Positions 2,370 through 42,859 of a stretch of DNA of 64,000 nucleotides are shown piece by piece. Source of the DNA: Frankia alni ACN14a (GTDB taxonomy: Bacteria; Actinomycetota; Actinomycetes; Frankiales; Frankiaceae); NCBI RefSeq assembly GCF_000058485.1, contig NC_008278.1:310001-374000 (forward strand). The letters are read 5' to 3'. The number at the start of each line of letters is the position of its first letter. The first letter of the stretch is position 1. The translations under genes were made by a program, and so were the position numbers. The notes under the pieces were generated by a model. That model was not told the origin of the DNA, did no database searches, and saw only the letters and a program-made list of their open reading frames with translations.

Positions 2370-2839
2370 CGGGCCAGGGGTGTCGTCGAACAGGACTCGA
2401 ACATCGTCCCACCCCCCACCGACAAAAACCCACCAAGATCAACCAGGCGGCAACGCCCACACACCGCCGCGACCGACCCGCACCCCCGGCCGCGACGCCG
2501 AACCTGGGGCCTATAGCCGCCATCGCGCCATCGCGGCATCGCGGCATCGCGCCATCGCGGCATCGGATCATGGAATGCTACGGAAGCCGAACCGGCCGGC
2601 AGCGGACCCGGAAACGGTGCCCGGCAGCCACCCAGGCGACTACGCCGGCACCCCAAAGACGATCTTGGTGTTCCGCGGAACCGGCACCGACCCGAGCTCC
2701 CGGCCGGAATGTGCATCCTGGGCGGGAGCCGTTGGCCGGATCGATGATCACGATTGTTCGTGGAGGGACCGAGGACCAGACGGCGCCAGGTGGCGGTGAT
2801 CGGTCGCGTCGGCTGGGTCAGTTGGTCGCGCCGACTGGG
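2370..2839. other. Intergenic region between the DUF222 gene and thrS
   Basis: 470 bases without a supported gene. It is the upstream side of the DUF222 gene and the downstream side of thrS. It contains an 8-bp tandem repeat (2521-2568) and most of a 22-bp repeat that runs into the end of thrS. I see no clear promoter or strong terminator hairpin. Confidence 0.5.
2521..2568. repeat. 8-bp tandem repeat, about six copies
   Basis: Six consecutive units of CATCGCGG or CATCGCGC; the last unit diverges to CATCGGAT. It lies in non-coding DNA upstream of the DUF222 gene. Confidence 0.85.
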
Positions 2840-2857
2840 TCAGTCGGTCGCGTCGAC
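2801..2857. repeat. 22-bp tandem repeat spanning the thrS stop codon
   Basis: Two complete units (2801-2822 and 2823-2844) and one partial unit (from 2845) share the core GGTCGCG..GACTGGGTCAGT. The thrS stop (TCA on this strand, 2840-2842) lies inside the second unit, so the duplication includes the stop codon. It belongs to a set of similar repeats in this window. Confidence 0.75.
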
Positions 2858-4888
2858 CTCGGTGGGTGTCGCGTCCGAGCCCGCGCGCAGGTGGCCGGCG
2901 CCCTCGAGGCTTCTGGTGTCGATCAGCTCGCGGACCCGGCGGACGAAGTCGGCCAGCGGCATGGACGTCTCCTGACCGGACCGGTCCCGCACGGAGACGC
3001 TGCCCTCCTCGACCTCGCGCCGACCGACGACGACGATCAGCGGGATCTTGCGGGTGACCGCGGTGCGTACCCGGGCCGGGAGCCGGCCGTCGCTGGCGTC
3101 GACGTCGACGCGCACGTCCGCGTCGAGCAGCGCCTGACTCACCGTCTCGGCGTACTCGTCGAGCTCCGGCATGATCGGGATGACCCGGACCTGCTCCGGG
3201 GCCAGCCAGACGGGGAAGGCGCCGCCGAAGTGCTCGGTGAGGAACGCGACGAACCGCTCGTGCGAACCCAGCGGCGCCCGGTGGATGACGACGACCTGCT
3301 TGTCGGTCCCGTCGGCGTCGTGGTACTTCAGGTCGAAGCGCTGCGGGGTGTAGAGGTCGACCTGGTTCGTCGAGGCGGCGAACTCCTTGCCGGTCACCGA
3401 GCGGATGATGAAGTCGACCTTCGGGCCGTAGTGCGCCGCGCCGCCGAGTTCCTCGACGTACGGGATGCCGGACTCGTCCATCGCCTCGCGGGTGATCCGT
3501 TCGGCGTCCTCCCACATCTGCGCGTCGTCGTGGTACTTCGTCGTGTTCGCCGGGTCGCGCAGGGCGAGAACCATGTAGAAGTCGGTGATCCCGAGCGCCC
3601 GGTAGTACTCGTCGTGCATCCGCATGACCTCGAGGAACTGCTCCTTGGCCTGCTCGCGGGTGCAGTAGATGTGGGCGTCGTTCTGGGTGAAGCCGCGGGC
3701 CCGCATCAGGCCGTGCAACTGGCCGCTGCGCTCGAACCGGTACACGGTCCCGTACTCGGCGATCTTGTAGGGGAGCTCGCGATAGCTCTTCGGCCGGGCC
3801 TTGTACACCATGTGGTGGTGCGGGCAGTTCATCGGCTTGAGGTAGTAGTTCTCGCCCTCGATCTGGATCGGGGCGTAGAGGTCCTCGGCGTAGTACGGCA
3901 GATGCCCGGACAGGAAGTAGAGGTCCTCCTGGGTGATGTGGGGCGTGACGACCCGGCGGTAGCCGAGGCGCCGCTCGGTCTGGCGGGCCCAGCCCTCCAG
4001 TTCGTCGCGGATGATCGTCCCGTTGGGCAGCCACAGGGGCAGCCCCTTGCCGATCTCCGGGCTGAACGCGAACAGGTCGAGATCCTCGCCGATGCGGCGG
4101 TGGTCCCGCTTGGCGGCCTCCGCCAGCGCGGTCAGATACTCCTTGAGCGCCGGACGGGTCGGCCACGCGGTCCCGTAGATCCGCTGCAGCTGGGGGTTCT
4201 TCTCGTCGCCGCGCCAGTAGGCGGCCGAGTTGCGCAGCAGCGCGAACGCGGGGATCAGATGGGTGGACGGCAGGTGCGGGCCGCGACACAGGTCGGTCCA
4301 GACGACCTCCCCGCTGCGGGGATCGACGTTGTCGTACATCGTCAGCTCGCCGCTGCCGACCTCGGTGGCGGCCGCGCCCGAGGCCTCCCCCTTGATGTCG
4401 ACGAGCTCCAGCTTGAAGGGCTCGGCGGCGAGCTCCTCGCGGGCCGCCTCCCGCGAGGTCAGCACGCGGCGGCGGAACCGCTGGCCCTGCTTGACGATCT
4501 CCCGCATCCGGGCCTGGATGCGTTCGAGGTCCTCGGCCTGGAACGGTTTGGGCACGTCGAAGTCGTAGTAGAAGCCGTTCTCGATCGGCGGCCCGATGCC
4601 GAGCCGGGCCTCGTCGAAGAGGTCCTGCACCGCCTGGGCCATCACGTGCGCCGTCGAGTGCCGCAGCACCGCGAGGCCGTCCGGACTCGACATCGGCACC
4701 GCCGTCACCTCGGTGTCCACAGCCGGCACGGCGGTGAGGTCGCGCAGCGTGCCGGCGGCGTCGCGGACGACCACGATCGCGTTCGGACCCGACATCGTCA
4801 GGCCGGCGGCCTTCACCGCCTCCGCAAAGCTGCTACCGGCTGGAGCGGACACCCGCTCCTCGGGCACCGCGGGCATACGTGCCGACAT
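2840..4888 (-). CDS. thrS: Threonine--tRNA ligase
   Basis: Charges tRNA(Thr) with threonine in the cytoplasm. The 682-residue protein has the usual layout: an N-terminal TGS-like domain (about 15-70), an editing (SAD) domain beginning with HSTAH at 77-81, the class II catalytic core, and a C-terminal anticodon-binding domain (from about 570). The catalytic zinc ligands expected from the E. coli enzyme are visible: Cys355 in MNCPHHH, His406 in NDAHIYC, and His536 in VIHRAPLG. ATG 4888 is preceded by GAGAGG on the minus strand. Length and motifs are complete. It stands alone, with a long upstream region (about 980 bases) that may hold its promoter. Confidence 0.97.
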   Translation of the reverse strand: MSARMPAVPEERVSAPAGSSFAEAVKAAGLTMSGPNAIVVVRDAAGTLRDLTAVPAVDTEVTAVPMSSPDGLAVLRHSTAHVMAQAVQDLFDEARLGIGPPIENGFYYDFDVPKPFQAEDLERIQARMREIVKQGQRFRRRVLTSREAAREELAAEPFKLELVDIKGEASGAAATEVGSGELTMYDNVDPRSGEVVWTDLCRGPHLPSTHLIPAFALLRNSAAYWRGDEKNPQLQRIYGTAWPTRPALKEYLTALAEAAKRDHRRIGEDLDLFAFSPEIGKGLPLWLPNGTIIRDELEGWARQTERRLGYRRVVTPHITQEDLYFLSGHLPYYAEDLYAPIQIEGENYYLKPMNCPHHHMVYKARPKSYRELPYKIAEYGTVYRFERSGQLHGLMRARGFTQNDAHIYCTREQAKEQFLEVMRMHDEYYRALGITDFYMVLALRDPANTTKYHDDAQMWEDAERITREAMDESGIPYVEELGGAAHYGPKVDFIIRSVTGKEFAASTNQVDLYTPQRFDLKYHDADGTDKQVVVIHRAPLGSHERFVAFLTEHFGGAFPVWLAPEQVRVIPIMPELDEYAETVSQALLDADVRVDVDASDGRLPARVRTAVTRKIPLIVVVGRREVEEGSVSVRDRSGQETSMPLADFVRRVRELIDTRSLEGAGHLRAGSDATPTEVDATD

Positions 4889-5869
4889 GGCCGCCTCTCA
4901 AGATCCTTGATGCTCTGCCTTCCTCCGATTGATCGTAGTCGCCCGCGCCGGGTGCACCGACGCACCCGCCCGGGCGTCCGATGTTCCTTCGGGGGGCCTC
5001 GTTCGGGGCGCTCTTCACCGAATTGCCCGCCCCGCGGCCCGAAGGCAGCGGCCCGAAGCCGGTGGTTCGAAGCCGGTGGTCCGAAACCGGTGGCTCGCCC
5101 CGGGCGGCAGCGTGTCATTCCGATCGGCGCCTGGGCGCCCCCGGCGTCCGGGTGGAGCAATGACCGGGCGGGGCCGACCCCCGCAACGGAGCGATATTCC
5201 CGTTCGGGGGTGGAGCCGCCGGAAATCCTCTCGGGCGAATCCGGATATCGGGCGCCTAATAGACCGTGGACTGAAGATCTAATCCGTCGTAATCCCGGCC
5301 GAGTCGTCCGGCCGGCGGCGGCGCCGGCCGGAAATGTGCCCGTCGGGGCGACTTCGCCGTGCGGGCTGCGCCGGGACCGGGCAGGCCGGACTCCGCGGGC
5401 GCCCGAACGGACAGCCCACCGCCATGGGACGGGTGCGCTGCCCGGCGGACCGCACCCGCCTCGGCGCCGGCGCCTGGGCCGCGCCGCGGATCCGGCGAGG
5501 GGCGCGCGCTGACCATGGCATCCGCATGCCGGCGCCCGCCTGCTCGCGCGCCGGGTGCCGCGGCGGCGAATGTGCTCGCATTGGTCCGCGGTCACGAAGT
5601 GCTACGTATGGCGATCTCAAATCTTTGTCGCGGCGCAGGTCACCGCTTTTCCTATAGGCGTGGGCGGGACCGTGTCGCTGCGCTGCGTAAACATTTGCGG
5701 GACGTCGTGGATGCACCAGGGTTGCCGGCCCGAGGCGGTGGTGATCGGCGTGAAACATCCGGCTGGATGCGAGGACTACCCGTTCAGGTCAGAAGCCCTT
5801 GTCCGGTGCGACTCCGTGATTTACCCTCGTTGGGCGGCTGCTTTTGCACAGCCTATGCTTGGAGGGCTC
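4889..5869. other. Long intergenic region between thrS and the radical SAM cluster
   Basis: 981 bases holding the divergent upstream regions of thrS (minus) and the radical SAM operon (plus). The stretches at about 5245-5300 and 5590-5660 are less GC-rich than their surroundings and are the likeliest promoter locations, but I could not fit a convincing -35/-10 pair. I looked for a short peptide gene (RiPP precursor) before the radical SAM gene and found none with a ribosome binding site. A 14-bp repeat lies at 5054-5095. Confidence 0.5.
5054..5095. repeat. 14-bp tandem repeat, three copies
   Basis: Three adjacent units of CGAAGCCGGTGGTT, with 1-2 changes each, in the region upstream of thrS. 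No function is apparent. Confidence 0.75.
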
Positions 5870-7237
5870 ATGGCTGAACTCCGCCCGCTTCCTCTCTTTG
5901 CCGGCCCATTCACCACGCTCGACGGCCGGTACTCCGCCTTCGCGGACGGAAAGGTCCTACGTGTGGGCCTGAAGATGAACACCCCGCCGACCTGCAACTG
6001 GAAATGCCCCTATTGTTATGCGGGCGATCCGGAACTGCACGGACGCCCCCGTCAACCCACCGTCATGACGGCGAACGAGTCGGGATCGGTGCCCCTGCAC
6101 CGCGACCCGGCCTGGGAACGGCGGATGGAGGGCTGGCTCGAGCAGGCGATCGCGCTCGGGCTGCAGGCGGTGACGGTGAACGGCACGTTCGAACCGCTGG
6201 CCGCGCCGGACTGGCAGGACACGATCTCCTTCCTGCAACGGCGGGGCATCGCGGTCACGCTCGTCACCAACGGGGGGCTGCTCACGCCGGAGTCGATCGA
6301 CTGGATCGTCGCCAGCGGCGTCAACCTGCTGACGAAGCTGAACGTGCCGGTCGTGGGGCCCGACGATCCCCGCCGCGCGCGGCTGGCCGAGGTGCAGAAG
6401 TACCTGTCCGGTCTGCCGCGGGACGCCGAGACCGTCTACGCCCGGCAGATCGCACTGATCGAGCGTCTCGAGGTCGCCGGCCTGACGGTGACGGACGAGC
6501 CCGGCCGCACCAGGCTCGGCGTCGAGTCGGTCATCGCCCGCGACAACCTGGAGTTCCTCCCGGAGCTGGTGGCCCAGCTGCGCGAGCGGAACATCTACTC
6601 GCACATCGAGCTCAGCAAGCTGCAGGGCTTCGCCCGGACCAACCCGCACCTGGTGATCCGCCGGGCCGAAATCGAGGAGCTGTTCGAGACCGTCCGCCGC
6701 CAGGACGCCGCGATGGGCTACGAGCCGTACCAGGCCAAGCCGCCCTGCCTGGCGGGCGCCTGCTACGAGAACCTGTACCGCCTCGACCTGCACGCCGACG
6801 GTGCCGTCAGGCCCTGCCCGGGGATCGAGACGACGATCGGTGACCTCAACCGGCAGCCGCTGGCCGAGGTGCTCGGCAGCCCCGCGCTCGCCGTCATCCG
6901 CAACCTCGACGACCACATCCAGGGCGACTGCCGGGACTGCGACCTGCTCGCCACCCGGCAGTGCTACGGCGGCTGCCGGGGCACCGCCTACCAGGCGATG
7001 GCGAACTCGGGACGCGGCGAGTACGAACGCTGGACCGCGTCCGATCCGTCCTGCTGGCGGGTGCACCGCGTGCTCGACGACGGCACACTCGCGCAGGATG
7101 TCCTCGACCGAGCGCTGACCACCGACGAGATCGCGCGGCTGCGCCTGCCCGACCTGGTCGAGGCCGGTGCGGCCGGTGCGGCCGGCGCGATCGGTGCGAT
7201 CGGTGCGGCCGGCGCCACCGGCGAGGGGGCGCGGTGA
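5870..7237 (+). CDS. Radical SAM/SPASM-domain protein
   Basis: A 455-residue radical SAM enzyme. The [4Fe-4S]/SAM site is CNWKCPYC (Cys42, Cys46, Cys49). The C-terminal third has a Cys-rich SPASM-type region running from CLAGAC (Cys293 onward) through RPCPG to CRDCDLL and CYGGCRG, expected to bind auxiliary clusters. Such enzymes modify peptides or small molecules by radical chemistry; the substrate cannot be told from sequence. The start is ATG 5870 with GGAGG at 5861-5865, although the frame is open further upstream. The last 25 residues are a Gly-Ala-Ile repeat encoded by a short tandem repeat, probably not part of the fold. The stop overlaps the next start (GTGA), making it the first gene of a coupled four-gene operon. 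Confidence 0.9.
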   Translation: MAELRPLPLFAGPFTTLDGRYSAFADGKVLRVGLKMNTPPTCNWKCPYCYAGDPELHGRPRQPTVMTANESGSVPLHRDPAWERRMEGWLEQAIALGLQAVTVNGTFEPLAAPDWQDTISFLQRRGIAVTLVTNGGLLTPESIDWIVASGVNLLTKLNVPVVGPDDPRRARLAEVQKYLSGLPRDAETVYARQIALIERLEVAGLTVTDEPGRTRLGVESVIARDNLEFLPELVAQLRERNIYSHIELSKLQGFARTNPHLVIRRAEIEELFETVRRQDAAMGYEPYQAKPPCLAGACYENLYRLDLHADGAVRPCPGIETTIGDLNRQPLAEVLGSPALAVIRNLDDHIQGDCRDCDLLATRQCYGGCRGTAYQAMANSGRGEYERWTASDPSCWRVHRVLDDGTLAQDVLDRALTTDEIARLRLPDLVEAGAAGAAGAIGAIGAAGATGEGAR

Positions 7238-8409
7238 ACCGGCCGCTGATCTCCGCCGACTCGCACCTCTGCGAGCCGCCCGAGCTGTGGACATCCCGGC
7301 TGCCGCGGCGCTACCAGGAGCGAGCGCCCCGGGTGGTGAACCTCGACGGGCGGCCGGGGGAGTACTTCGTCTGCGAGGACATCCAACCGCGCAGCGTGTA
7401 CGCGGCCAGCGCCGCCGGCGTGCCGTCCGAGGAGCTCCCCCGCCGGGCGGCCCAGGGCTTCGCCGCCGCCCCACCCTCGGTGTGGGATCCGCGGGCGCGG
7501 CTCGCCGAGCAGGACGTCGACGGCGTTGCCGCGGAGGTGCTGTTCCCCACCTTCGCGGACCTGGTCTTCGGCTGCCGCGACGCCGAGTTTCGCCGCGCCT
7601 GCCTGCGCGCCTACAACGACTTCGTCGCCGAGTACTGCGCCGCCGACCCGAACCGGCTCGTCGGCACCGCCCTGGTGGACGACGCCGACCCCGGGCTCGC
7701 GGCGGCGGAGGTCACCCGGGCGGCGGGTCTGGGCCTGCGCGGCGTCGTGTTACGCGCCGACCCGGAGCGGTCCTACGCGGACGCCTCCTTCGACCCGGTG
7801 TGGGAGACCGCCGTCGGCCTCGACCTGCCGGTGGTCATCCACCGGGGCGCCGTCCGCCGCGACATCACGATCGACGTCCACGGCGCGCTGCTCGACTACG
7901 TCATGATCCCGTCCCAGGCCCAGCGCGCGCTCACCGCGCTCGTCTTCGGCGGTGTCTGGGAGCGGTATCCGGCACTGCGGCTGGTCCTCTGCGAGTTCGA
8001 CCTGCTGTGGATGCCGCATTTCCTGCAGCGGCTGGAGCACGCCGACCACCGGTTCGGACGATCCTTCGGCGTCGACCTGTCCCGGCCGGCCCGCGACCAG
8101 GTGACCGACGGCGTCTGGGTCACGTTCCAGCACGAGACCGACGAGGTGACCCGGATCCTGCCGAGCTGGTCGCGTGAGCGGCTGATGTGGGCCTCGGACT
8201 ACCCGCACGCGGACTCCACCTGGCCGCACTCGGTGGGCAAGGTCGCCGAGCTGCGTGCGGCGGTCGGGCCCGACACCACCACGCTGTTCACGCACGACAC
8301 GGTGTCCCGGCTGTTCGGGCTGCGCCTGCCGGCGACCGCCCCGACCGGCCCAACCGCTCCGACCGGCCCGATCGCTCCGGTCGCGTCACTCGAGGCGGCG
8401 CGTCCATGA
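7234..8409 (+). CDS. Amidohydrolase (ACMSD/decarboxylase-like TIM barrel)
   Basis: A 391-residue amidohydrolase-2 family protein. Features are ISADSHLCEP at the N-terminus (normally a metal-binding HxH; here the second ligand position is Glu), VVIHRGA, LCEFDLLWMPHFLQR, and WASDYPHADSTWPHS near the C-terminus, which carries the catalytic Asp. Relatives act as metal-dependent decarboxylases or hydrolases on aromatic or small carboxylic substrates; which of these applies is unknown. The GTG start at 7234 overlaps the previous stop by 4 bp, and its own stop overlaps the dioxygenase start (ATGA), so translation is coupled. The final 25 residues are a Thr/Ala/Pro/Gly repeat encoded by near-perfect tandem copies, a low-complexity tail like that of the preceding gene. 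Confidence 0.88.
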   Translation: MNRPLISADSHLCEPPELWTSRLPRRYQERAPRVVNLDGRPGEYFVCEDIQPRSVYAASAAGVPSEELPRRAAQGFAAAPPSVWDPRARLAEQDVDGVAAEVLFPTFADLVFGCRDAEFRRACLRAYNDFVAEYCAADPNRLVGTALVDDADPGLAAAEVTRAAGLGLRGVVLRADPERSYADASFDPVWETAVGLDLPVVIHRGAVRRDITIDVHGALLDYVMIPSQAQRALTALVFGGVWERYPALRLVLCEFDLLWMPHFLQRLEHADHRFGRSFGVDLSRPARDQVTDGVWVTFQHETDEVTRILPSWSRERLMWASDYPHADSTWPHSVGKVAELRAAVGPDTTTLFTHDTVSRLFGLRLPATAPTGPTAPTGPIAPVASLEAARP

Positions 8410-9251
8410 GCGAGCGGACCGATACCGCCCGGCTCGACGTCGAACGCTACCGCGCCGAGGGTCTCGTCATCGCCCCCGAACCGATACCGGCCGAAGTCCT
8501 CGACGATGTGCGGTCGGACCTCGTCGACTATCTGCGGGACGACCCGAGCGATGTGCCGGACTTCGTGCCCGACCTGATGGCGAGTGGCTTCGGCCTGCGC
8601 TACGGCAGCCACCCGGTGCTGCTGGACGCGGTGTCGGCGGTGCTCGGCGACGATGTCCTGCTGTGGGCCTGCGGGATGTTCGGCAAGCCGGCGCGGGTCG
8701 GCAAACCGACGCCCTGGCACCAGGACGGCCACTACTGGCCCATCCGGCCGCTGGCGACGTGCACGGTGTGGCTGGCGCTGGACCGGTCCGGCCCGCACAA
8801 CGGCGGACTGCGCTACGTCGCCGGTTCGCACCGGGCGCGCACGCTGCTCGGGCACCAGCGCTCCGACGGGCGCGACACCACCCTGAACCAGGGGCTGGAG
8901 CTCGACGAGCCACAGCGCGCCGCCGTGCGCGTCGCCGAGCTGGAACCGGGTCACTTCTCGCTGCACGACGTCCATCTCGTGCACGGATCCTCGGCCAACG
9001 TCTCCGGGGCGCGCCGCGCCGGAATCACCTTCCGGTACATGCCCGCCACCTCCTACTACGACCGTGATCTCGCCCGCCGCCAGCACCGCGAGCTCGGCGT
9101 CCCGGACATCTCCGGGCGGGTGCTCCACCGAGTCCGCGGCGTGGACCGCACCGGCCGCAACGACACGGTGGACGCGACGGCCGGGCCCTGGACCGCTGCG
9201 GCGGCCCCGGCTGGCGGGCCCGCGCCGCCCGTGTCAGGGAGACCCTCGTGA
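8406..9251 (+). CDS. Phytanoyl-CoA dioxygenase family protein
   Basis: A 281-residue Fe(II)/2-oxoglutarate-dependent oxygenase of the PhyH type. The iron facial triad is visible as His105-x-Asp107 in PWHQDGHYW and the distal His193 in DVHLVHGSS. The 2-oxoglutarate-binding Arg is likely in RRAGITFRY. Enzymes of this family hydroxylate, halogenate or otherwise oxidise aliphatic carbons and are common tailoring enzymes in natural-product clusters. Its setting between an amidohydrolase and a B12-radical SAM gene, with 4-bp overlaps on both sides, points to a pathway step rather than lipid breakdown. The last 35 residues are Ala/Pro/Gly-rich and probably disordered. Confidence 0.9.
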   Translation: MSERTDTARLDVERYRAEGLVIAPEPIPAEVLDDVRSDLVDYLRDDPSDVPDFVPDLMASGFGLRYGSHPVLLDAVSAVLGDDVLLWACGMFGKPARVGKPTPWHQDGHYWPIRPLATCTVWLALDRSGPHNGGLRYVAGSHRARTLLGHQRSDGRDTTLNQGLELDEPQRAAVRVAELEPGHFSLHDVHLVHGSSANVSGARRAGITFRYMPATSYYDRDLARRQHRELGVPDISGRVLHRVRGVDRTGRNDTVDATAGPWTAAAAPAGGPAPPVSGRPS

Positions 9252-10816
9252 AAGTCGCCTTTGTGAACGTCAACGCCAAGCAGGACGCCATCGGAGGGCG
9301 GGAGCTGACGTTCTACGAGAACAAGTGCAGCATCGAGCTGGGCACGCTCTACCTGGAGGCCAACGTCGCGTGGCGGCCGGAGGACCGCACGCTGCAGGTG
9401 AACCTGCTGCACCTGCTCAGCCGGGGCGAGGACTGGCGTTCGGCGCTCGGCCGGTTCGCCCCCGACGTCGTGGCGCTCAGCGCGTTGACCTACTACGCGC
9501 CGGAGCTCGCCTTCGTGGCCGGCTGGGTCAAGGCGGAGTTCGGCAGCGTCGTGGTCGTCGGCGGCCCGCACGCGACGGCGCTCGGCCGGAGCGTGCTCGA
9601 CGACGACAACATCGACTACGCCCTGGTGGGGGAGGGCGAGGCTGGTTTCAGCGACCTGCTCGACCTGCTCCGCGAGGGCGGCGGTGACGGCGGTGATGGC
9701 GGTGGCGGCGGCAGTGGTGGCGATGGCGGTTCGCCGCGGGCGGACGTCGTCGGGCTCGTCTACCGTGAGCCCGACGGGACCGTCCGGGCGAATGCGCGCG
9801 GCGTCGTGCCCGACCTCGACACGCTCGCGACACCCACCCTCGCGCACCTCGACCCGACCCTCTTCGCCGGATACACCTCGCTGCTCAACCTCAAGGTGCG
9901 GTACGTGCCGATCGTCACCACGCGGGGCTGCCCGTACCAGTGCGTGTACTGCCACGACATCATGGGGAAGTCCGTGCGGTACCGGTCCGCGGCGGCGGTG
10001 GTGGCGGAGGTCGACTACTGGCGGGAGGCCGCCGGCGTCGACACGTTTCTCGTCTACGACGACATCTTCAACATCCACCGCGGTCGGGTACGGGAGATCT
10101 TCGCCGAGTTCGCCCGGCGGCCCGGGCTGCGCTTCGCGTTCCCCAACGGCCTGCGCGCGGACCTGCTCACCGAGGACATCGTCGACCTGCTGCTCGAGGG
10201 CGGCACGTTCTACGCGATGGTCGCGGTGGAGTCGGGTGACCGACGGGTGCAGGAGGTGATCAAGAAACGGCTGAACCTCGAACGCACCCGCAGGATGATC
10301 GAGTACATGGGTAACGCGGGCGTCATTCTCGGCTCGTTCAACATCTTCGGCTTCCCGTCGGAGAGCGAGGCGGACATCGAGCGGACGATCGAGTTCAACG
10401 CGTCGACGACGGGGCTGAGCAAGGCGAACTTCTTCGTGCTGTCCCCGCACGAGGGCACCGAGGTCTGGGACATGGCGATCGACCAGGGTTATGAGCCGCC
10501 CCGTGGTGGTGCGGGCGAGGGCTATTTCAGCGCCCGGGAGAGCTCGCCGACTGCGGAGGTCTCCTGGCATCGCCTGGAGGAGCTGCGCCGGGAGGCGTAC
10601 AGCCGCTTCTACCTGACCCCGGCACGGGTGCGCAAGGTCCTCACCGACACCGCGCGGAACATGACCCCGCAGGAGAAGCACACCTTCCACAGCGTCGACT
10701 ACTCGTTCGTGCTCCGGCAGTTCCTCGACGTCGACTCGCTCGATGCGCTGCCGCGCGGCGAAACCACCGAACTCCTGCACGACCTCCTGCCGGCCGGAGT
10801 GCTGTCCGGCTACTGA
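9248..10816 (+). CDS. B12-binding domain radical SAM protein
   Basis: A 522-residue protein with an N-terminal cobalamin-binding Rossmann-like domain (about 1-140, with VVVVGGPHATALG) and a central radical SAM domain with CPYQCVYC (Cys228, Cys232, Cys235). A C-terminal region follows (about 420-522). Many family members are methyltransferases acting on unactivated carbons; others catalyse ring rearrangements. Between the two domains, at residues 142-160, sits a Gly/Asp/Ser-only linker encoded by GGCGGTGAT-type repeats. The GTG start overlaps the dioxygenase stop by 4 bp. The gene ends the plus-strand operon and overlaps the convergent ATP-grasp gene by 7 bp. Confidence 0.92.
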   Translation: MKVAFVNVNAKQDAIGGRELTFYENKCSIELGTLYLEANVAWRPEDRTLQVNLLHLLSRGEDWRSALGRFAPDVVALSALTYYAPELAFVAGWVKAEFGSVVVVGGPHATALGRSVLDDDNIDYALVGEGEAGFSDLLDLLREGGGDGGDGGGGGSGGDGGSPRADVVGLVYREPDGTVRANARGVVPDLDTLATPTLAHLDPTLFAGYTSLLNLKVRYVPIVTTRGCPYQCVYCHDIMGKSVRYRSAAAVVAEVDYWREAAGVDTFLVYDDIFNIHRGRVREIFAEFARRPGLRFAFPNGLRADLLTEDIVDLLLEGGTFYAMVAVESGDRRVQEVIKKRLNLERTRRMIEYMGNAGVILGSFNIFGFPSESEADIERTIEFNASTTGLSKANFFVLSPHEGTEVWDMAIDQGYEPPRGGAGEGYFSARESSPTAEVSWHRLEELRREAYSRFYLTPARVRKVLTDTARNMTPQEKHTFHSVDYSFVLRQFLDVDSLDALPRGETTELLHDLLPAGVLSGY

Positions 10817-12231
10817 CGGCCCACATGACGGGCGCCCGTCGGATGGTCGCCCGTGACGAAGCGGATGCGTTGCTGCGCCCAGCGGCCGAGGTCCTCCGCG
10901 GTGGCGAAGTCGGCCGCCGCGATCATGACGTGGACCGTGCAGTGGTCCGAGCGCGGCGCGCGATGGATGTAGGTGCCCGGGTGCTCGTAGACGCAGACCT
11001 CCACGACGTCCGGGTGCGCCCGCACCTCGTCCAGCCCCTCGATCGCCCGCAGCATCCCCTCGTCGGCGAACAGGCCGAACGTCATCACCGCGGGGCTGCG
11101 CCGCTCAGGTTCGGGCCGCTCAGGTTCGGGCCGCTCAGGTTCGGGCCGCTCGGGTTCGGGCCGGTCGGGTTCGGGGGCCGGCGCCGCGCGCCCGTTCGCC
11201 GTCGGCGCGCCGGTGGCGATCCGGACCATCGTCTCGACGAGGTCGACGCCGTGGGCGAGCCGGGCCGACCGGAAGATCGGGCCGCCGCCCATCCGCGCCG
11301 CGACCTCGAGTAGCACCGGCCCGGTGTCCGTCGTGCGCATCTCGGCGTGGAACACGCAGTCCCGCAGGCCGAGCGCGCGCACGGCGCCGGCCGCCACGTC
11401 GTCCACCCGGGCCAGCAGCTCCGCCGGCAGCCGGGAGGGCGACGACCACAGCACCTCCTCGAAGAAGGGGCCGTCGGCCGGCAGCGGCTTGTCGTGGTGG
11501 GCCAGCACCCGCACCTCGCCGCCGACGACGCTGCCCTCGACGCTCACCTCGCCGACGGGCAGGTCCAGCGAGCTGGCGAACCACCGCCGCCCGCCGATGA
11601 GCTGCTCGACGAGCAGGCGAGGTGCCGCGCCGCCGCGGAAGGTGGCGTGCACCAGCGGGTCGCCGGCGACGACCTGGGCGCCGCCGCGCAGCACGTCGTC
11701 GAACGCGGCGGCCAGCTCGGCCGGGTCGTGCACCGTCCAGACGAACAGGCTGCCGCCGGCGAGCAGCGGCTTGAGCACCACCGGGTAGCCGATGTCCGCG
11801 GCGATCGCCAGCGCCTCGTCGAGCCGCCCGGCGGTGCCGAACCGCACCGTCGGCAGGCCGTGCTCGGCGAAGGCCGCCCGCATCCGGGACTTGTCCCGGG
11901 CCCGCTCCAGCACGTCCCCCGGCGTGAACGGCAGGCCCAGCTCCGCCGCCACGGCCGAGCAGAACGCCAGACCTGTCTCCGACAGCGAGACGATGCCGTC
12001 CGCGACGCTCCCGCGGCGGGCGAGCAGGTCCCGCGTGGCGCGGATCGCGGCCGGCGCGTCGAGCCGGTCGATCCGCACCACGTCGGCGAGGAGTTCGTCG
12101 GCCCAGGGCGGGACGTCGGTGTGATCCTCGGCGAGCAGGACGACGCGCGGGTGGATTTCGGCGAGGCGGATGAGCGCCGGCCGGCGTGGTTCGTTGAGGG
12201 GGCTGTAGACGAGGAGCGCGCCCTCAACCAT
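10810..12231 (-). CDS. ATP-grasp domain protein (carboxylate-amine ligase type)
   Basis: A 473-residue ATP-grasp enzyme. After an N-terminal Rossmann-like domain come DKSRMRAAFAEHGLPTVRF (start of the ATP-binding core), YPVVLKPLLAGGS (nucleotide-binding Lys) and LLEVAARMGGG (Mg-binding loop). Family members join a carboxylate to an amine, thiol or similar group through an acyl phosphate. A linker of five PEPER-type repeats, encoded by 15-bp tandem copies, separates the core from a C-terminal domain of about 80 residues. ATG 12231 overlaps the upstream methyltransferase stop by 8 bp, so the two are translationally coupled. In this cluster it could form an amide or peptide bond in the product. 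Confidence 0.88.
   Translation of the reverse strand: MVEGALLVYSPLNEPRRPALIRLAEIHPRVVLLAEDHTDVPPWADELLADVVRIDRLDAPAAIRATRDLLARRGSVADGIVSLSETGLAFCSAVAAELGLPFTPGDVLERARDKSRMRAAFAEHGLPTVRFGTAGRLDEALAIAADIGYPVVLKPLLAGGSLFVWTVHDPAELAAAFDDVLRGGAQVVAGDPLVHATFRGGAAPRLLVEQLIGGRRWFASSLDLPVGEVSVEGSVVGGEVRVLAHHDKPLPADGPFFEEVLWSSPSRLPAELLARVDDVAAGAVRALGLRDCVFHAEMRTTDTGPVLLEVAARMGGGPIFRSARLAHGVDLVETMVRIATGAPTANGRAAPAPEPDRPEPERPEPERPEPERPEPERRSPAVMTFGLFADEGMLRAIEGLDEVRAHPDVVEVCVYEHPGTYIHRAPRSDHCTVHVMIAAADFATAEDLGRWAQQRIRFVTGDHPTGARHVGRQ
11101..11175. repeat. 15-bp in-frame tandem repeat inside the ATP-grasp gene
   Basis: Five contiguous 15-bp units (CCGCTCAGGTTCGGG, with 1-2 changes in the last two) encode repeated Arg-Pro-Glu-Pro-Glu in the interdomain linker of the ATP-grasp protein. 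Copy number is likely to vary between strains. Confidence 0.9.
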
Positions 12232-13027
12232 CCCGGCGCGCGATGCAGGCATAGAAGTTGCGGGTGAAGACGAACTCGTCGCGTTCGGCCCCCGCGGCCA
12301 GCTCGGCGAGCCACCGGTCAGCCTCCGCGGCGGCGAATCCGGCGGTGACGACCCAGTCCCGGATCCGGGTGAAGAATGCCCGGTCGAAGGTCCGATCAAT
12401 ACGGACCGTCGAGTGGAACCCGGTGACGGTGAAACCGGCGTCCCGCAGCAGCGAGGGCAGCTTGCGCCCGATCCAGCCGTCCTGCCAGAAGTCGGTCGCC
12501 GCATCGAGGATCCGGCGGCTGAGGTCCCGGTCGCCCGGGTGGATCACGGCGCTGCCGAAATCCTGGTCGAGGACGGCGGCCGTCCCGCCGCGACGGGTGA
12601 GCCGGTGCATCTCCCGGAGGATGCCGGCGGGGTCGGCGGCATGCACCAGCACGGTCGCGGTCGTCGCGAGATCGAACTGCTCGTCCGGCAGCGGCACCTG
12701 CGTTCCGTCGGCGGCGAAGATCTCGAACCGGCCAAAGCGTTCGGCCGCCCGCCTGGCGAGGTAGGCGCTGCGATCGATGCCGACGGCCCGCTCGACCTGG
12801 TCGGTGCCCAGATGGCCCACCAGCCGGTCGAGAACCTGCCCGGTGCCGCAGCCGACCTCGAGGACCGTCCGCGCCTCCCGCGGCAGCAGATCGAAGAACC
12901 AGTCGAGGACGGCGGGATAGTAGTGCCCGGCCATCCGTTCGAGAAGAATGCTTTCCTCGAAGGTGGGATCGGCTCCCGAATCGATGGTGTCGAACGGGTC
13001 GACGTTGCGTTCGATCGAGATTGTCAC
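12224..13027 (-). CDS. Class I SAM-dependent methyltransferase
   Basis: A 267-residue protein with a Rossmann-type methyltransferase fold. Motif I is VLEVGCGTG (55-63). An acidic residue after the second strand (AVGIDRS) and LPDEQFDLATTATVLVHAADP (post-motif I to motif II) follow. Members methylate small molecules at O, N or C; the substrate is unknown. The start is GTG 13027, with GGGAG seven bases upstream. It is the first gene of the two-gene minus arm and overlaps the ATP-grasp gene. It shares the upstream region with the divergent SARP-type regulator, which suggests control by that regulator. Confidence 0.88.
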   Translation of the reverse strand: MTISIERNVDPFDTIDSGADPTFEESILLERMAGHYYPAVLDWFFDLLPREARTVLEVGCGTGQVLDRLVGHLGTDQVERAVGIDRSAYLARRAAERFGRFEIFAADGTQVPLPDEQFDLATTATVLVHAADPAGILREMHRLTRRGGTAAVLDQDFGSAVIHPGDRDLSRRILDAATDFWQDGWIGRKLPSLLRDAGFTVTGFHSTVRIDRTFDRAFFTRIRDWVVTAGFAAAEADRWLAELAAGAERDEFVFTRNFYACIARRDG

Positions 13028-13274
13028 TACTGCGCTCCCGGGGTCCGAAGGGCACTGAGCGAACGGCCGTCCTTTCGGACCACGATTTCCGGGCCGCTGC
13101 GCCCCGTCAAGCTCGACTGTCGGCGCTGATAGGCGGTATCAACATTTGACCGTATTTGCGGCGGTGTCGGGTGGGTGGGTGGCAGGCGCTGCCGCCCCGG
13201 TCCAGATCGACGCCGCGTGGCACCATCGAGGTGCTTGGCGCGGTTCGTCCGTCGGGCGACCTGAGGGGGGACGA
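13028..13274. promoter_or_regulatory. Divergent control region of the methyltransferase and the SARP regulator
   Basis: A 247-base gap between divergent starts (GTG 13027 minus, GTG 13275 plus). It must hold both promoters and is the natural place for SARP binding. I see no clear heptameric direct repeats of the classic SARP type. The segment around 13125-13160 is the least GC-rich part. Supported by position rather than by motif. Confidence 0.45.
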
Positions 13275-15251
13275 GTGGAGACTCTGCGGATCGAGCTGTT
13301 CGGCCACTTTCAGGTCACGGTGGGAGACCGGGCGGTCCCGGACGCGACCTGGTCGCAGCGCAGGCCGGCGGCGCTCGTCAAGTTGCTCGCCCTGGCACCC
13401 GGGCACCGCCTGCGCCGGGACCAGGTGATGGACGTCCTGTGGCCGGAACTGGACCCGGCCGCGGCCGGCCGTAACCTGCGCAAGGCCCTGCACGCGGCCC
13501 GCCGCGCGCTCGACGGCGAACAGGGCGCGGATCTCATCGCGTCGGTCGGTGACCTGTTGTGCCTACCGGCGGATCGGCTGTCGGTCGACGTGGACGAGTA
13601 CCGGTCGGCCGCCGCGACCGCGCGGCGCACCCGGGCCGTCGACGCACACGTCGGCGCGATCGAGCGCTACCGGGACGGGCTGCTGCCGCAGGACGTCTAC
13701 GAGGACTGGGCGGCCGCGCCGCGCGATGCCCTGCGTGATGACTGGCTGGCGCTGATGGCGGAGTTCGCGGAGCTGCTCGAAACCCGCGGGGACCTCAACC
13801 ATGCCGCCCGGACCGTGCAGCGCCTCGTCGCCGCGGATCCCCTGAGTGAGGACAACCACGCCTGGCTGATGCGGCTGTATTCCGCCGCCGGTCGCCGTGG
13901 CGAGGCCCGGCGGCAGTACCAGCGGCTGTGCGACGTGCTCGACGCGGAGCTGGGGATCGAACCGAGCCCGTCGACGCAACGGTTGTACGAGGAGATCCGC
14001 AGCAACCTCGCGGCCGAGCCGGAGCAGGCGATCGAGGTCTGGGAGCGGGTCGGGGACCTGCGCGCCCAGTCGGGCGACGCCGCGGCGACGATCACGGCCT
14101 ACGAGCGGGCGCTGCGGGCCGGACCCGACGCGTCGACAGCCGTCCGCCTGCATCGCAAGAGCGCCGCCACGCTGGTGACGCAGCAGCAGCTCGACGCGGC
14201 CGAGACGCACCTGGACGCGGCGGACCGACTCGGGCCGGACGCCACCGACCAGGGCCGGCTGGCCGGCGTGCGGGCGAGTGTGATGCGGGAACGCGGCGAC
14301 CTCGCCGCAGCCCGCCAGCTGGCCGACCGGGCGCACCAGGTGGCCGTGGTGCACGGCGACGCCGACGCCGTCGTCGAGGCGCTCGAGGAACAGGCGATCC
14401 TGGCGCACATCCAGGGCACCTGGCGCACGGCGCTGCAGCTCCAGATGCCGCGGCTCGCGGCGGTGGACCTGGGCGGCCGGGTCAGCCGGTTCTTCGAGAT
14501 CAACCACTGCATCGGGCAGTACCAGCTTTACGAGGACGCCCTCGCCGGCGACGTCGAGCAGTACGCGCGCGAGACGCTGGCGCTGGCCGAGCGAGCCGAC
14601 GCGGTGGCGGTGCAGGCCTTCGCCTGGTGTCTGCTCGGCGAGTCGCTGCTGTTGCGCGGCCACTGGGACGCCGCGGCCGCCTGCCTGGACCGAAGCTGCG
14701 AGCTGTACGCGCCGATGGGCAGCCGATCCGTCGCGCTGCCCTGGCTGCGCCGGGCCGAGCTCGCGATCTGCACGGGTGCCTTCGACGAGGTTGCGCCCTA
14801 CCTCGGGCGGGCGTCCGCCATCGCGGCGGTCACCCCGCTTGCCCGGCACGCCTGGGGGCGGTTGCACGCCACGGCCGCGCTGGCGGCGCTGGAGCGGGAC
14901 GATCTCGACGGCGCCGTCGAGTCGGTGCGGGCGGCGTCGCGCACCGCGGCCCACTACGGCGACTGCGCCAGCTGCGGCCTGTTGCTCAACCCGGTCGGCG
15001 CGGAGACGCTGGCGCGGACCGGCGACGTCGCGGGAGCGCGGGCCTTCGCCGAGGCGGCCCGGCGGGCGGCGTCGTTCCACGACAGCATGGCCTGGACGGC
15101 CATGGCCGAGTCGGCGGCCGCAAGTGCCTCGGTGGCCGCAGGCGACCCGGTCGAGGCTCGCGTGGGGTTCGACTCGGCCGCCGCGCTGTACGAGAAGGCC
15201 GGGCAGCCGTTCTGGGCCGCCCGCTCGCGCCGCCAGGCCGCCGCGGTCTGA
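13275..15251 (+). CDS. AfsR/SARP-type transcriptional regulator with BTAD and TPR-like region
   Basis: A 658-residue regulator. Residues 1-95 form an OmpR-like winged helix (ETLRIELFGHFQVTVGDRAV, then LLALAPGHRLRRDQVMDVLWP), and about 100-250 a bacterial transcriptional activation domain (DVDEYRSAAATARR to DVLDAELGIEPSPSTQRLYEEI). The rest is a helical TPR-like repeat region without an NTPase P-loop, so it is not a full AfsR. SARPs typically activate neighbouring secondary-metabolism genes in actinobacteria. The start is GTG 13275 with a GAGGGGGG tract just upstream; the frame is open 43 codons further but without protein-like sequence. Its position divergent from the methyltransferase/ATP-grasp pair makes it the probable cluster regulator. 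Confidence 0.88.
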   Translation: METLRIELFGHFQVTVGDRAVPDATWSQRRPAALVKLLALAPGHRLRRDQVMDVLWPELDPAAAGRNLRKALHAARRALDGEQGADLIASVGDLLCLPADRLSVDVDEYRSAAATARRTRAVDAHVGAIERYRDGLLPQDVYEDWAAAPRDALRDDWLALMAEFAELLETRGDLNHAARTVQRLVAADPLSEDNHAWLMRLYSAAGRRGEARRQYQRLCDVLDAELGIEPSPSTQRLYEEIRSNLAAEPEQAIEVWERVGDLRAQSGDAAATITAYERALRAGPDASTAVRLHRKSAATLVTQQQLDAAETHLDAADRLGPDATDQGRLAGVRASVMRERGDLAAARQLADRAHQVAVVHGDADAVVEALEEQAILAHIQGTWRTALQLQMPRLAAVDLGGRVSRFFEINHCIGQYQLYEDALAGDVEQYARETLALAERADAVAVQAFAWCLLGESLLLRGHWDAAAACLDRSCELYAPMGSRSVALPWLRRAELAICTGAFDEVAPYLGRASAIAAVTPLARHAWGRLHATAALAALERDDLDGAVESVRAASRTAAHYGDCASCGLLLNPVGAETLARTGDVAGARAFAEAARRAASFHDSMAWTAMAESAAASASVAAGDPVEARVGFDSAAALYEKAGQPFWAARSRRQAAAV

Positions 15252-15326
15252 GGACCGCCCCGGTGACGGCCGCCGGACCTGGTCCGCGGTGCCCGGCTCG
15301 GTGGCCCACCCGGGTTGGGCCCGACT

Positions 15327-15376
15327 GCGGTGCGCTCTGCACGGTCTGTGCCCGCGCACCGTGCAGAGCGCACCGC
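15327..15376. terminator. Perfect 19-bp inverted repeat downstream of the SARP gene
   Basis: Arms 15327-15345 and 15358-15376 are perfectly complementary (core GTGCGCTCTGCACGG) around a 12-base loop. It lies 75 bases after the SARP stop and between converging genes, so a bidirectional terminator is likely. Confidence 0.65.
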
Positions 15377-15453
15377 ACGCCGCCGGTGCACCGCGACCGG
15401 CCGGTATGGCCTGCGGTCGGTGGCCCGTCCACTCGCGGCCGAACCAGGAGGCC

Positions 15454-15477
15454 GTCGTCCTGATCGATCAGGACGAC
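15454..15477. other. Perfect 24-bp palindrome
   Basis: GTCGTCCTGATC followed directly by its reverse complement, with no loop. As RNA it would need to open at the centre, so it could equally be a protein-binding site or a cruciform-prone sequence. It lies between converging genes, which argues against an operator for either. Confidence 0.7.
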
Positions 15478-15586
15478 GTCAACGTCGTCGCGAGACTCGG
15501 ACAGTCGGATCGTCCGCTCCGGGCCGCCGAGCACTGCCCCCGGTACACGCCCCTGCCCCCGACCGCTGACTCGACCTGCTGCGTGA

Positions 15587-15661
15587 CTCAGGCTGCTGTG
15601 CGGCTCAGGCTGCTGTGCGGCTCAGGCTGCTGTGTGGCTCAGGCTGCTGTGTGACTCAGGC
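15587..15661. repeat. 17-bp tandem repeat ending in the peroxiredoxin stop codon
   Basis: Four full units of CTCAGGCTGCTGTGCGG (15587-15603, 15604-15620, 15621-15637, 15638-15654) and a partial fifth unit whose CTCA contains the peroxiredoxin stop (TCA, 15656-15658). Each unit carries a copy of the stop triplet, so the array seems to have grown from the end of the gene. Confidence 0.9.
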
Positions 15662-16315
15662 GGTCGGCTGCGGGACGATGCGGATGTAGGGCTTCGGCTC
15701 GTCCCAGGTGCCGAAGATCTCCTTGGCCTGGTCGTTGGAGACCGAGCCGGCGATGACGACGTTCTCGCCCTGCTTCCAGTTCACCGGGGTGGCGACCTTG
15801 TGCTTCGCGGTGAGCTGCAGGGAGTCGATGACCCGCAGGACCTCGTCGAAGTTGCGCCCGGTCGTCATCGGGTAGACCAGCACCAGCTTGATCTTCTTGT
15901 CCGGGCCGATGACGAAGACGTTGCGCACGGTCTGGTTGTCCGCCGCCGTCCGGTCCGACGGGTCACCGCTGACGTCGGCGCCGAGCATGCCGTACGCCTT
16001 GGAGATCGCGAAGTCGGCGTCGCCGATCAGCGGGTAGTTGGGCGCGGTGCCCTGGGTCTCCTCGATGTCCTTGGCCCAGGCGTCGTGCAGCTCGATCGGG
16101 TCGACCGAGAGGCCGATGATCTTGACGTTGCGGCGGTCGAACTCGGGCTTGATCGACGCGACGTAGCCGAGCTCGGTCGTGCAGATCGGGGTGAAGTTCT
16201 TCGGGTGGGAGAACAGCACCGCCCACGAGTCGCCGATCCACTCGTGGAACTTGATCGGGCCCTCCGTGGTCGCGGCCACGAAGTCGGGCGCGGTGTCACC
16301 GATCGTCAGGGACAT
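15656..16315 (-). CDS. 1-Cys peroxiredoxin (Prx6 type)
   Basis: A 219-residue thiol peroxidase that reduces hydrogen peroxide and organic peroxides in the cytoplasm. The active site is HPKNFTPICTTE with peroxidatic Cys45 and Thr42. The long C-terminal dimerisation region (PVNWKQGENVVI, then PKPYIRIVPQP) marks the Prx6 subgroup. No resolving Cys is apparent, consistent with a 1-Cys mechanism. The start is ATG 16315 with GGAG six bases upstream. It is monocistronic. Its 3' end lies in a 17-bp tandem repeat. Confidence 0.95.
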   Translation of the reverse strand: MSLTIGDTAPDFVAATTEGPIKFHEWIGDSWAVLFSHPKNFTPICTTELGYVASIKPEFDRRNVKIIGLSVDPIELHDAWAKDIEETQGTAPNYPLIGDADFAISKAYGMLGADVSGDPSDRTAADNQTVRNVFVIGPDKKIKLVLVYPMTTGRNFDEVLRVIDSLQLTAKHKVATPVNWKQGENVVIAGSVSNDQAKEIFGTWDEPKPYIRIVPQPTA

Positions 16316-16454
16316 TACTCACTCCGTTCACAGAGGAAGCTCGGCGAGGGACGCCGAGGTGGTGCGTCGTGAAGGACTCTACGGACACGGCGTTCCCTGG
16401 ACGTTCCCTTGGCACGCAGGCCTCCGCCGAGGCTCGTCGGGTCGTGCGGCCTTG

Positions 16455-17267
16455 TCAGGACGGTCGCTGGCAGCCGGGGCACCAGAACAGGTTGCGGGCG
16501 GCCAGGCGGTTGGTCAGCACCGTGGTGGCGCAGATCAGGCAGGGCTGGCCGGCGCGGCGGTAGACGTAGACCTCGCCACCGTGGTCGTCGACCCTGGGCG
16601 GACGGCCCATCGCCTCGGGGGTGTGCTCGGGGCGCACGGTGTCGATCCGGCCCGTGCGCACCCCGTCGGCCATCAGCGTGACCAGGTCGGCCCAGATGGC
16701 CGTCCACTGCCGCCGGGTCAGGTCCCGTCCGGGTAGCAGCGGGTCGACACCGGCCCGGAACAGCACCTCGGCCCGGTAGATGTTGCCCGGGCCGGCCACG
16801 ACCATCTGGTCGAGCAGGAGGACGGCGATCGGGGTGCGGCTGCGCTCGATCCGGCGCCAGGCCAGGTCCGGGTCGGCATCGCCGCGCAGCGGATCGGGGC
16901 CGAGCCGGTCGCGCAGCGTCTTCACTCCACCGGGTTCCAGCAGCTCGCAGGCGTTGGGACCGCGCAGGTCGGCGTAGCCGGTGTCCGCGGTGAGCCGCAG
17001 CCGGACGGCGCCGGTCGGCACGGGAGCGGGCCCGGGGCCAAAGGCGTAGGTGCCGTAGATGCCGAGGTGCACATGCAGGACCTGGTCGTGGTCGAACCGC
17101 AGGAGCAGATGCTTGCCGTGCGCCTCGGCGTCGGTGAGCGGCCGCCCGTCCAGCCGGCGCGCGCCCTCGGTGAACCGCCCCTGGGGGCTGGCCACGGACA
17201 CCGTCCGGCCGGCGAACATCCGCTGGTGAACCGCGGCCAACCTGTGCACAGTGTGACCTTCGGGCAT
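16455..17267 (-). CDS. Fpg/Nei family DNA glycosylase (Nei2-like)
   Basis: A 270-residue base-excision-repair enzyme. The mature N-terminus is MPEGHTVHRLA, with catalytic Pro2 (Schiff base) and Glu3. A helix-two-turn-helix follows (GPGNIYRAEVLFRAGVDP), and the protein ends in a zinc finger, CLIC...CPGC. The MPEGHT start (rather than MPELPE) indicates the Nei/endonuclease VIII branch, as in actinobacterial Nei2. It removes oxidised pyrimidines and nicks the strand. ATG 17267 is fixed by the catalytic N-terminus, so the open frame upstream is not part of the gene. It is divergent from the acyl-CoA dehydrogenase-like gene at 17375. Confidence 0.95.
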   Translation of the reverse strand: MPEGHTVHRLAAVHQRMFAGRTVSVASPQGRFTEGARRLDGRPLTDAEAHGKHLLLRFDHDQVLHVHLGIYGTYAFGPGPAPVPTGAVRLRLTADTGYADLRGPNACELLEPGGVKTLRDRLGPDPLRGDADPDLAWRRIERSRTPIAVLLLDQMVVAGPGNIYRAEVLFRAGVDPLLPGRDLTRRQWTAIWADLVTLMADGVRTGRIDTVRPEHTPEAMGRPPRVDDHGGEVYVYRRAGQPCLICATTVLTNRLAARNLFWCPGCQRPS

Positions 17268-41406: not shown

Positions 41407-41655
41407 CCGACCCCTGCCCCCGCCGGCCTTCACCGACGGCGCCGAAAGGCCGCCGAGAAATCGATCCGCCGAATAGCAGGAGCGGATCGAAACGCCGACC
41501 CTGTGACGCCCTCTGCTGCCTTCTTTCAGGAATGCCTGGGGGGCGATCCGCCAATACTTGCGGACCGGGATACGAGCTGGTAAAAAGCAATCGGTAGCCC
41601 CGGTATGAAACAGCTCACACCTCTTCTGGTAAGGTTCGGGACCCGTGGGGAGCAC

Positions 41656-42843: not shown

Positions 42844-42859
42844 TCCGCGGGAGAAGCAG

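Follow-up and report, generated by a model that had tools for sequence, protein, structure and literature searches.

A second threonyl-tRNA synthetase with a BorO-type active site beside six enzyme genes in Frankia alni ACN14a: a candidate cluster for a threonyl-tRNA synthetase inhibitor

Borrelidin is a polyketide, and borO is the resistance gene of its cluster; obafluorin is a product of nonribosomal peptide synthetase (NRPS) chemistry. The obafluorin cluster of Pseudomonas fluorescens encodes a second threonyl-tRNA synthetase (ThrRS), ObaO, beside the antibiotic pathway, according to passages of two reports (PMC11252418; PMC9854587). Here we describe a 64,000-nucleotide stretch of Frankia alni ACN14a (hereafter the window; bases 310001-374000 of the 7,497,934-bp single-contig genome, NC_008278.1), in which six enzyme genes, named A to F (window positions 5870-13027), adjoin thrS2 (2840-4888, minus strand). 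The begins given for FRAAL0337 and FRAAL0338 in PMC10252897 (365258 and 366130) coincide with the low ends of predicted ORFs at window 55258 and 56130, as expected for ACN14a. The product of thrS2, ThrS2, is a second ThrRS with a BorO-type active site, recognised by TIGR00418 and by its pocket residues, and we propose that thrS2 is a self-resistance gene.

We give a probability of about 0.57 to the reading that thrS2 and A-F together make up a small biosynthetic cluster for an inhibitor of ThrRS, with ThrS2 as the self-resistant target. We favour this reading because thrS2 lies 981 bp from A and copies of ThrS2 at 96-98% identity occur only in the four A carriers among 13 Frankia genomes, because ThrS2 falls into the clade of borrelidin-type ThrRSs and shares all nine of their unusual pocket residues despite an overall identity of 76-77%, and because the contiguous block shared with Frankia sp. 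QA3, another carrier, reaches from thrS2 to F. The joint absence of these genes from two relatives (G003 and G010), the dN/dS values and the position of BacD as the nearest PDB relative of E also speak for it. Gene content, co-distribution, synteny, purifying selection and the kinship and pocket residues of ThrS2 are observations; the single product of A-F, its chemistry, its target and the resistance of ThrS2 to it are inferred.

ThrS2 and its relatives

ThrS2 scored 610.7 bits against TIGR00418 (cut-off 383.65). A housekeeping ThrRS, about half identical to ThrS2, is encoded in all 13 Frankia genomes, and the genus search found both copies in all four carriers of A, which are exactly the genomes with a close ThrS2 copy; the dN/dS of thrS2 (0.09-0.13) indicates purifying selection. 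Outside Frankia, the closest ThrRSs among the matches listed at E 1e-205 in the class sample were those of G356 (77% identity), G025 (75%), and G026 and G023 (both 61%). The G356 gene has as neighbours genes for a polyketide synthase (PKS) module, a P450, an aminotransferase, a zinc dehydrogenase, a GH3 protein and a luciferase-like protein, while two further genes of that stretch, encoding 1737 and 2133 aa, were outside the scan. On a plasmid of Streptomyces sp. SGAir0924, the gene of a ThrRS 75.5% identical to ThrS2 is the last in a row of genes annotated as coding for type I PKSs, a P450, an aminotransferase, a zinc dehydrogenase, a GH3 protein, an F420-dependent oxidoreductase and a fumarylacetoacetate hydrolase. 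This order resembles that of the borrelidin cluster, reportedly set out by Olano in 2004, and the name borrelidin-type, which we use for these two PKS clusters, rests on gene order. G023 and G026 represent a sister genus, and neighbours of the G023 gene include those for a DegT aminotransferase and a nucleotidyltransferase.

An alignment of 46 ThrRS rows (E. coli, four ThrS2, 13 housekeeping Frankia copies, a third copy of Frankia torreyi CpI1, SGAir0924 and 26 non-Frankia loci of the class sample) revealed nine unusual pocket residues in ThrS2 of all four strains, which are H336, H338, N382, H461, A479, A480, L487, Y488 and T489 in E. coli numbering. All nine were observed in both borrelidin-type copies and in G025, and eight in G023 and G026, which carry M489. 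The other 37 rows hold none of the nine, except G362 with one; since the positions were chosen by eye after a first alignment, this contrast describes the group and is no blind test. The third ThrRS of CpI1 (36000-38700 of contig C92) is 46% identical to ThrS2 and has none of these BorO-type residues. Tyr462 and Gly463 are retained in ThrS2 of all four strains. Gly463 and Leu489 are called strictly conserved in ThrRS in a passage of PMC11252418; several actinobacterial ThrRSs of our alignment carry Gln489, and position 489 alone is thus not diagnostic.

ThrS2 also retains the residues aligned with E. coli Cys334, His385 and His511, which, together with the purifying selection, would suit a synthetase that supplies Thr-tRNA or an aminoacyl adenylate to the pathway, or that answers a regulatory need, instead of conferring resistance. 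However, Pfam recognised no tRNA-dependent enzyme among A-F, and the pocket changes are common to the ThrRSs of PKS clusters, making such a role very improbable.

Phylogenetic analysis placed ThrS2 in a clade with both borrelidin-type copies and the copies of G025, G023 and G026 (FastTree 1.0, IQ-TREE 100), and the same clade without G023 and G026 received supports of 0.968 and 96, respectively. Support for a group of ThrS2 and the two borrelidin-type copies without G025 was weak (0.416 and 76), and hence the trees do not establish a closer kinship of ThrS2 with borO than with the G025 copy.

The six enzymes and their predicted product

Genes A-D lie on the plus strand and are joined through 4-bp overlaps (GTGA for A/B, ATGA for B/C and GTGA for C/D), E and F overlap by 8 bp on the minus strand, and thrS2 and A diverge from an intergenic region of 981 bp (4889-5869). 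The successive overlaps and the coupled minus arm of methyltransferase and ATP-grasp genes had been described in an earlier, sequence-only reading of this DNA and were borne out here, and Pfam agreed with every family that it had named (SPASM, amidohydrolase, PhyH, B12-radical SAM, ATP-grasp, methyltransferase and SARP). Its statement that PKS, NRPS and terpene synthases are missing also held, as the Pfam scan of A-F detected no domain of these three kinds. The frames of A-F are open in the carriers, with dN/dS values of 0.11-0.32 relative to ACN14a, although C is interrupted by a contig end in Frankia sp. AiPs1 and the length of E ranges between 439 and 473 aa among strains. Since the order of A-F is also kept in CpI1, QA3 and AiPs1, the six genes are more than a chance assembly and constitute a real gene set.

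Gene A (5870-7237; 455 aa) encodes a SPASM-type radical SAM enzyme with PF04055 and PF13186 above cut-off, a CxxxCxxC motif at 42 and eight further cysteines, including those of the SPASM domain; all eleven cysteines are invariant in the four strains. No PDB relative of A was found at E 0.01. The second radical SAM enzyme, D (9248-10816, plus strand; 522 aa), is of the B12-binding type (PF02310 and PF04055 above cut-off, CxxxCxxC at 228) and stayed under the cut-off of every named NCBIfam family listed. Gene C (8406-9251, plus strand; 281 aa) encodes a PhyH-type Fe(II)/2-oxoglutarate oxygenase (PF05721) with HxD at 105-107, and F (12224-13027; 267 aa) a SAM-dependent methyltransferase (PF08241) with the motif VLEVGCGTG. 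PADLOC gave matches below family level only, of A to viperin models (6.6e-8), of D to PDC-M51A (1.8e-7) and of F to mad2 (3.7e-16).

The product of B (7234-8409, plus strand; 391 aa) belongs to PF04909 (Amidohydro_2) and matched 38 PDB sequences at E 0.001, the best being PtmU3 (E 1.8e-43), followed by DitZ, while the weaker matches comprise dinuclear oxygenases as well as mononuclear decarboxylases. Dinuclear oxygenases of the amidohydrolase fold are described, in a passage of PMC10811679, as using three histidines and three carboxylates as ligands. B has H11, E14, H203, E254, H300 and D322 at the PtmU3-aligned places, all invariant in the four strains, suggesting that it is a probable dinuclear non-heme oxygenase of the PtmU3 type. 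The earlier label amidohydrolase holds at the level of Pfam, but a monooxygenase, PtmU3, is the closest relative of solved structure, and B retains six residues of the sort that bind a dinuclear metal centre. AlphaFold2 models of A and B, built from alignments of four rows each, were of poor quality, with mean pLDDT values of 36.0 and 40.0, respectively. A second PF04909 gene, within 40048-47094 of the window, stands beside genes for a periplasmic binding protein, a branched-chain-type ABC transporter and an amidase and is probably catabolic.

Gene E (10810-12231; 473 aa) encodes an ATP-grasp ligase with the C-terminal domain of L-amino-acid ligases, as seen from PF13535 (ATP-grasp_4; 46.2 bits, cut-off 27) and PF18603 (LAL_C2; 64.4 bits, cut-off 29.4) in a scan that was run on a longer ORF, to 12504. 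Its nearest PDB sequences, BacD and BL00235, are remote (E 4.6e-17 and 6.4e-17), and E scored below the cut-offs of the BacD and DdaF families of NCBIfam. A ligase of this type suits the amino-acid-derived product that had been suggested from the letters alone.

Family membership only bounds the chemistry of A-F, which likely involves two O2-dependent and two radical SAM steps, together with transfer of a methyl group and formation of an amide bond at the expense of ATP. In the pathway that we envisage, A, B, C, D and F would construct and tailor a non-proteinogenic amino acid or a comparable small unit, and E would couple it to an amino acid to give a dipeptide-like product, BacD being the enzyme that makes the dipeptide in the bacilysin pathway. 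The product, or a warhead freed from it, would block the housekeeping ThrRS, whereas ThrS2 with its remodelled active site would go on charging tRNA-Thr in the producer. It may be speculated that a PhyH step to a beta-hydroxy amino acid would give a natural threonine mimic.

SPASM enzymes act mostly on peptides, A has weak NCBIfam matches to maturases of ribosomally synthesised and post-translationally modified peptides (RiPPs), and D has one to ApyD (93.8 bits, cut-off 750), as would be expected if A-F modified a ribosomal peptide encoded nearby or elsewhere, with ThrS2 as immunity factor or bystander. We consider a RiPP pathway improbable, because E is similar to ligases that join free amino acids and because the intergenic DNA offered no convincing conserved precursor ORF in the three local stretches searched (4889-5877, 13028-13290 and 15252-15655). 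Among 18 ORFs of at least 15 codons, only two, both antisense (16 and 21 codons), match full-length and stop-free in the other three strains, and both sit within near-invariant upstream DNA. The search covered the region near 5400-5870 and agrees with the earlier impression that no precursor peptide is visible. About 100 bp ahead of A (5764-5869) are almost invariant in the four strains, more so than the remaining intergenic DNA, and likely contain a promoter or operator; Rfam returned no match at E 0.1 between 4800 and 16500.

Distribution, neighbouring genes and competing explanations

In the genus search, A was found in 4 of the 13 Frankia genomes. At family level, five of 35 genomes matched, four with identities of 93-100% and the fifth with 26%, and in the class sample nine of 393, comprising the same four carriers and five genomes at 28.1 bits or less. 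Gene D (E 1e-20) was detected in eight of the 393, the same four at 92-100% identity and four others at no more than 34%, and E (E 1e-25) in the same four of 35 family genomes as A; the A and E copies of the carriers are 90-95% identical. These counts cover A, D, E and ThrRS, and three to four candidates were scored per genome in the class samples, so that weaker or second copies could escape. A search with six peptide patterns of A, which detects close relatives only, returned six loci, three of them in Frankia at 95% identity (CpI1, QA3 and AiPs1) and three at 30% or less. On plasmids, none of the matches listed for A, B, C, D and E exceeded 36% identity, and A had no match in phages. The set is thus rare in the genomes searched, and, as the sequence-only reading had supposed, its genes behave as a single unit: A and E share their four family genomes, D reaches at least 92% in the same four of 393, and the gene order is constant. 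We rejected the idea of a general alder host determinant, as A is present in 4 of 13 Frankia genomes only and missing from G001 and G006.

A-F follow one order in CpI1 and QA3 and are spread over two contigs in AiPs1, and thrS2 adjoins them in all four carriers. The block common to ACN14a and QA3 (2839-13064) consists of thrS2 and A-F in three near-contiguous pieces, and a peroxiredoxin gene (Prx; 15454-16429) forms a separate piece. In QA3, the 6.8 kb past thrS2 gave no match of more than 200 bp to the first 24 kb of the window, and the 5.9 kb past Prx none of more than 150 bp within the 64-kb window. CpI1 shares more flank with ACN14a, namely, to the left, a portion of a DUF222 gene and, to the right, the SARP gene described below. 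Two DUF222 genes bracket the wider region (867-2297 and 28179-29534); the left one adjoins thrS2, and its part common to CpI1 is unmatched in QA3. Of the cluster first drawn at 5870-15251, the A-F set stands, but its left edge stopped one gene short and missed the adjacent ThrS2, the protein most telling on the product, and its right edge lies too far out, including a SARP gene outside the block of all four carriers. Co-location of homologues, whose complete lack had been named as evidence against a cluster, was observed, though in close relatives only, and is not strong independent support.

A FastTree phylogeny of housekeeping thrS (one gene, midpoint root) grouped G003 and G010 with ACN14a, AiPs1 and CpI1 while leaving QA3 outside (support 0.949), and all six together with a support of 0.51. 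Neither G003 nor G010 carries A, E or thrS2, as a joint loss would give. The carrier pattern would thus fit one gain and one joint loss, in which case the co-distribution is not repeated independent evidence. No clean empty site was found via Prx: in G003, the Fpg-side genes are inverted relative to Prx, and on its other side nothing matches the window.

The SARP-type regulator (BTAD/SARP, PF03704; plus strand, start at 13275 or possibly 13146, end at 15251) is a weakly linked neighbour. At E 1e-30 it was found in six of the 13 Frankia genomes, namely ACN14a, CpI1 (95%), AiPs1 (94%, truncated at the end of a contig) and, with identities of 64-65%, G001, G005 and G006, which all lack A. In G001 and G006 it adjoins the same Prx, and the SARP-Prx pair looks older than the enzyme set. 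In its place, QA3 has an M42-peptidase-like fragment (7373-8104 of the QA3 stretch). A role as dedicated regulator of A-F is weakened by QA3 and by the three genomes with SARP and without A; the regulator divergent from the minus arm is present, as had been noted, but is only loosely linked to the set.

In nodules of Alnus glutinosa, the SARP FRAAL0301 was 12.38-fold over-abundant, as reported in PMC8951365, and by tag counting this is probably the SARP at 13275-15251. The same paper places FRAAL0303 in the family of FRAAL5802, whose tag is close to that of rnc (FRAAL5804); FRAAL0303 suits the Fpg gene at 16455-17219, though the family is named otherwise there, and Prx would then be FRAAL0302 and SARP FRAAL0301. 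The ALDH gene at 25659 and the SDR gene at 27214 agree with the tags FRAAL0315 and FRAAL0316. None of the tags inferred for thrS2 and A-F (FRAAL0294-0300) appears among the main-text table rows examined of that paper, and the nodule link is a lead and no result for the cluster itself.

The main rival to a ThrRS-inhibitor cluster is that ThrS2 defends the strain against borrelidin of competing actinomycetes and shares an island with A-F with no tie to their product. All nine pocket residues are those of the borrelidin-type cluster ThrRSs, a single acquisition can yield co-distribution, and the G025 copy, which has no recognised cluster, shows that stand-alone protection is possible. In contrast, the adjacency, the restriction of the QA3-shared block to just thrS2 and A-F, and the lack of both thrS2 and A in G003 and G010 argue against it, and we regard such defence as possible but rather unlikely.

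Several further points weigh against our proposal of a ThrRS-inhibitor cluster. The G025 gene, with all nine residues, lies on a 21.6-kb contig on which no PKS, NRPS or A-F relative was recognised among the eight neighbour proteins scanned, and the G023 and G026 genes, with eight residues, adjoin nucleoside diphosphate-sugar genes, with an epimerase in both, so that this type of ThrRS also occurs outside antibiotic clusters. Gly463, the residue changed in ObaO, is unaltered in ThrS2, QA3 retains A-F without the SARP gene, the set of thrS2 and A-F includes no transporter gene, and the co-distribution of thrS2 with A-F probably stems from a single acquisition.

Comparison with known systems

The set resembles several described systems in part. 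B aligns with PtmU3, one of the amidohydrolase-fold dinuclear oxygenases (AROs), over its full length, with three histidines and three carboxylates at aligned places that would serve as metal ligands, but Pfam recognised no small Rieske gene among A-F. E shares the combination of ATP-grasp and LAL_C2 domains with BacD of the bacilysin pathway and with BL00235, a similarity that is remote. On a plasmid of Roseibium aggregatum, the gene of a D relative (32% identity) is annotated as overlapping a PhyH gene by 4 bp, with a SPASM gene 6 kb on, but none of A, B, C, E and F matched the stretch at E 0.01. Three PhyH genes, a B12-radical SAM gene and a SPASM gene lie between 7000 and 16336 of that stretch, perhaps a distant pathway of similar chemistry.

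Like the obafluorin cluster, the thrS2 locus places a second ThrRS beside pathway genes. However, ObaO resists through Ser at Gly463, whereas ThrS2 keeps Gly463 in all four strains and has other changes instead, and thus is not of the ObaO type. We found no prior report of the link proposed here in the open literature on Frankia and ThrRS or borrelidin, which was the scope of the search, subscription papers lying outside it. Through the resistance-type gene, which predicts what the product hits, an orphan gene set is given a target that can be tested. If the proposal is true, a nitrogen-fixing symbiont would also gain a candidate antibiotic; according to the abstract of PMC8951365, genetic tools for this symbiont do not exist.

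With BorO and the borrelidin cluster of Streptomyces the likeness lies in the synthetase, ThrS2 being 76-77% identical to the ThrRSs of two borrelidin-type clusters and identical to them at all nine pocket residues. The pathways differ, as A-F contain no PKS domain or recognised relative of the borrelidin tailoring genes, and no PKS stands beside thrS2 among A-F. We see about even odds that the locus represents a third biosynthetic class of ThrRS inhibitor, neither polyketide nor NRPS product, put together in nodule symbionts by two radical SAM enzymes, two non-heme oxygenases, a methyltransferase and an amino-acid ligase, in which a BorO-type ThrRS is paired with an unrelated pathway, possibly one active in the alder nodule. 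In that case, one lineage of resistance genes would be reusable by unrelated pathways, and a new scaffold would join the natural ThrRS inhibitors beside borrelidin and obafluorin.

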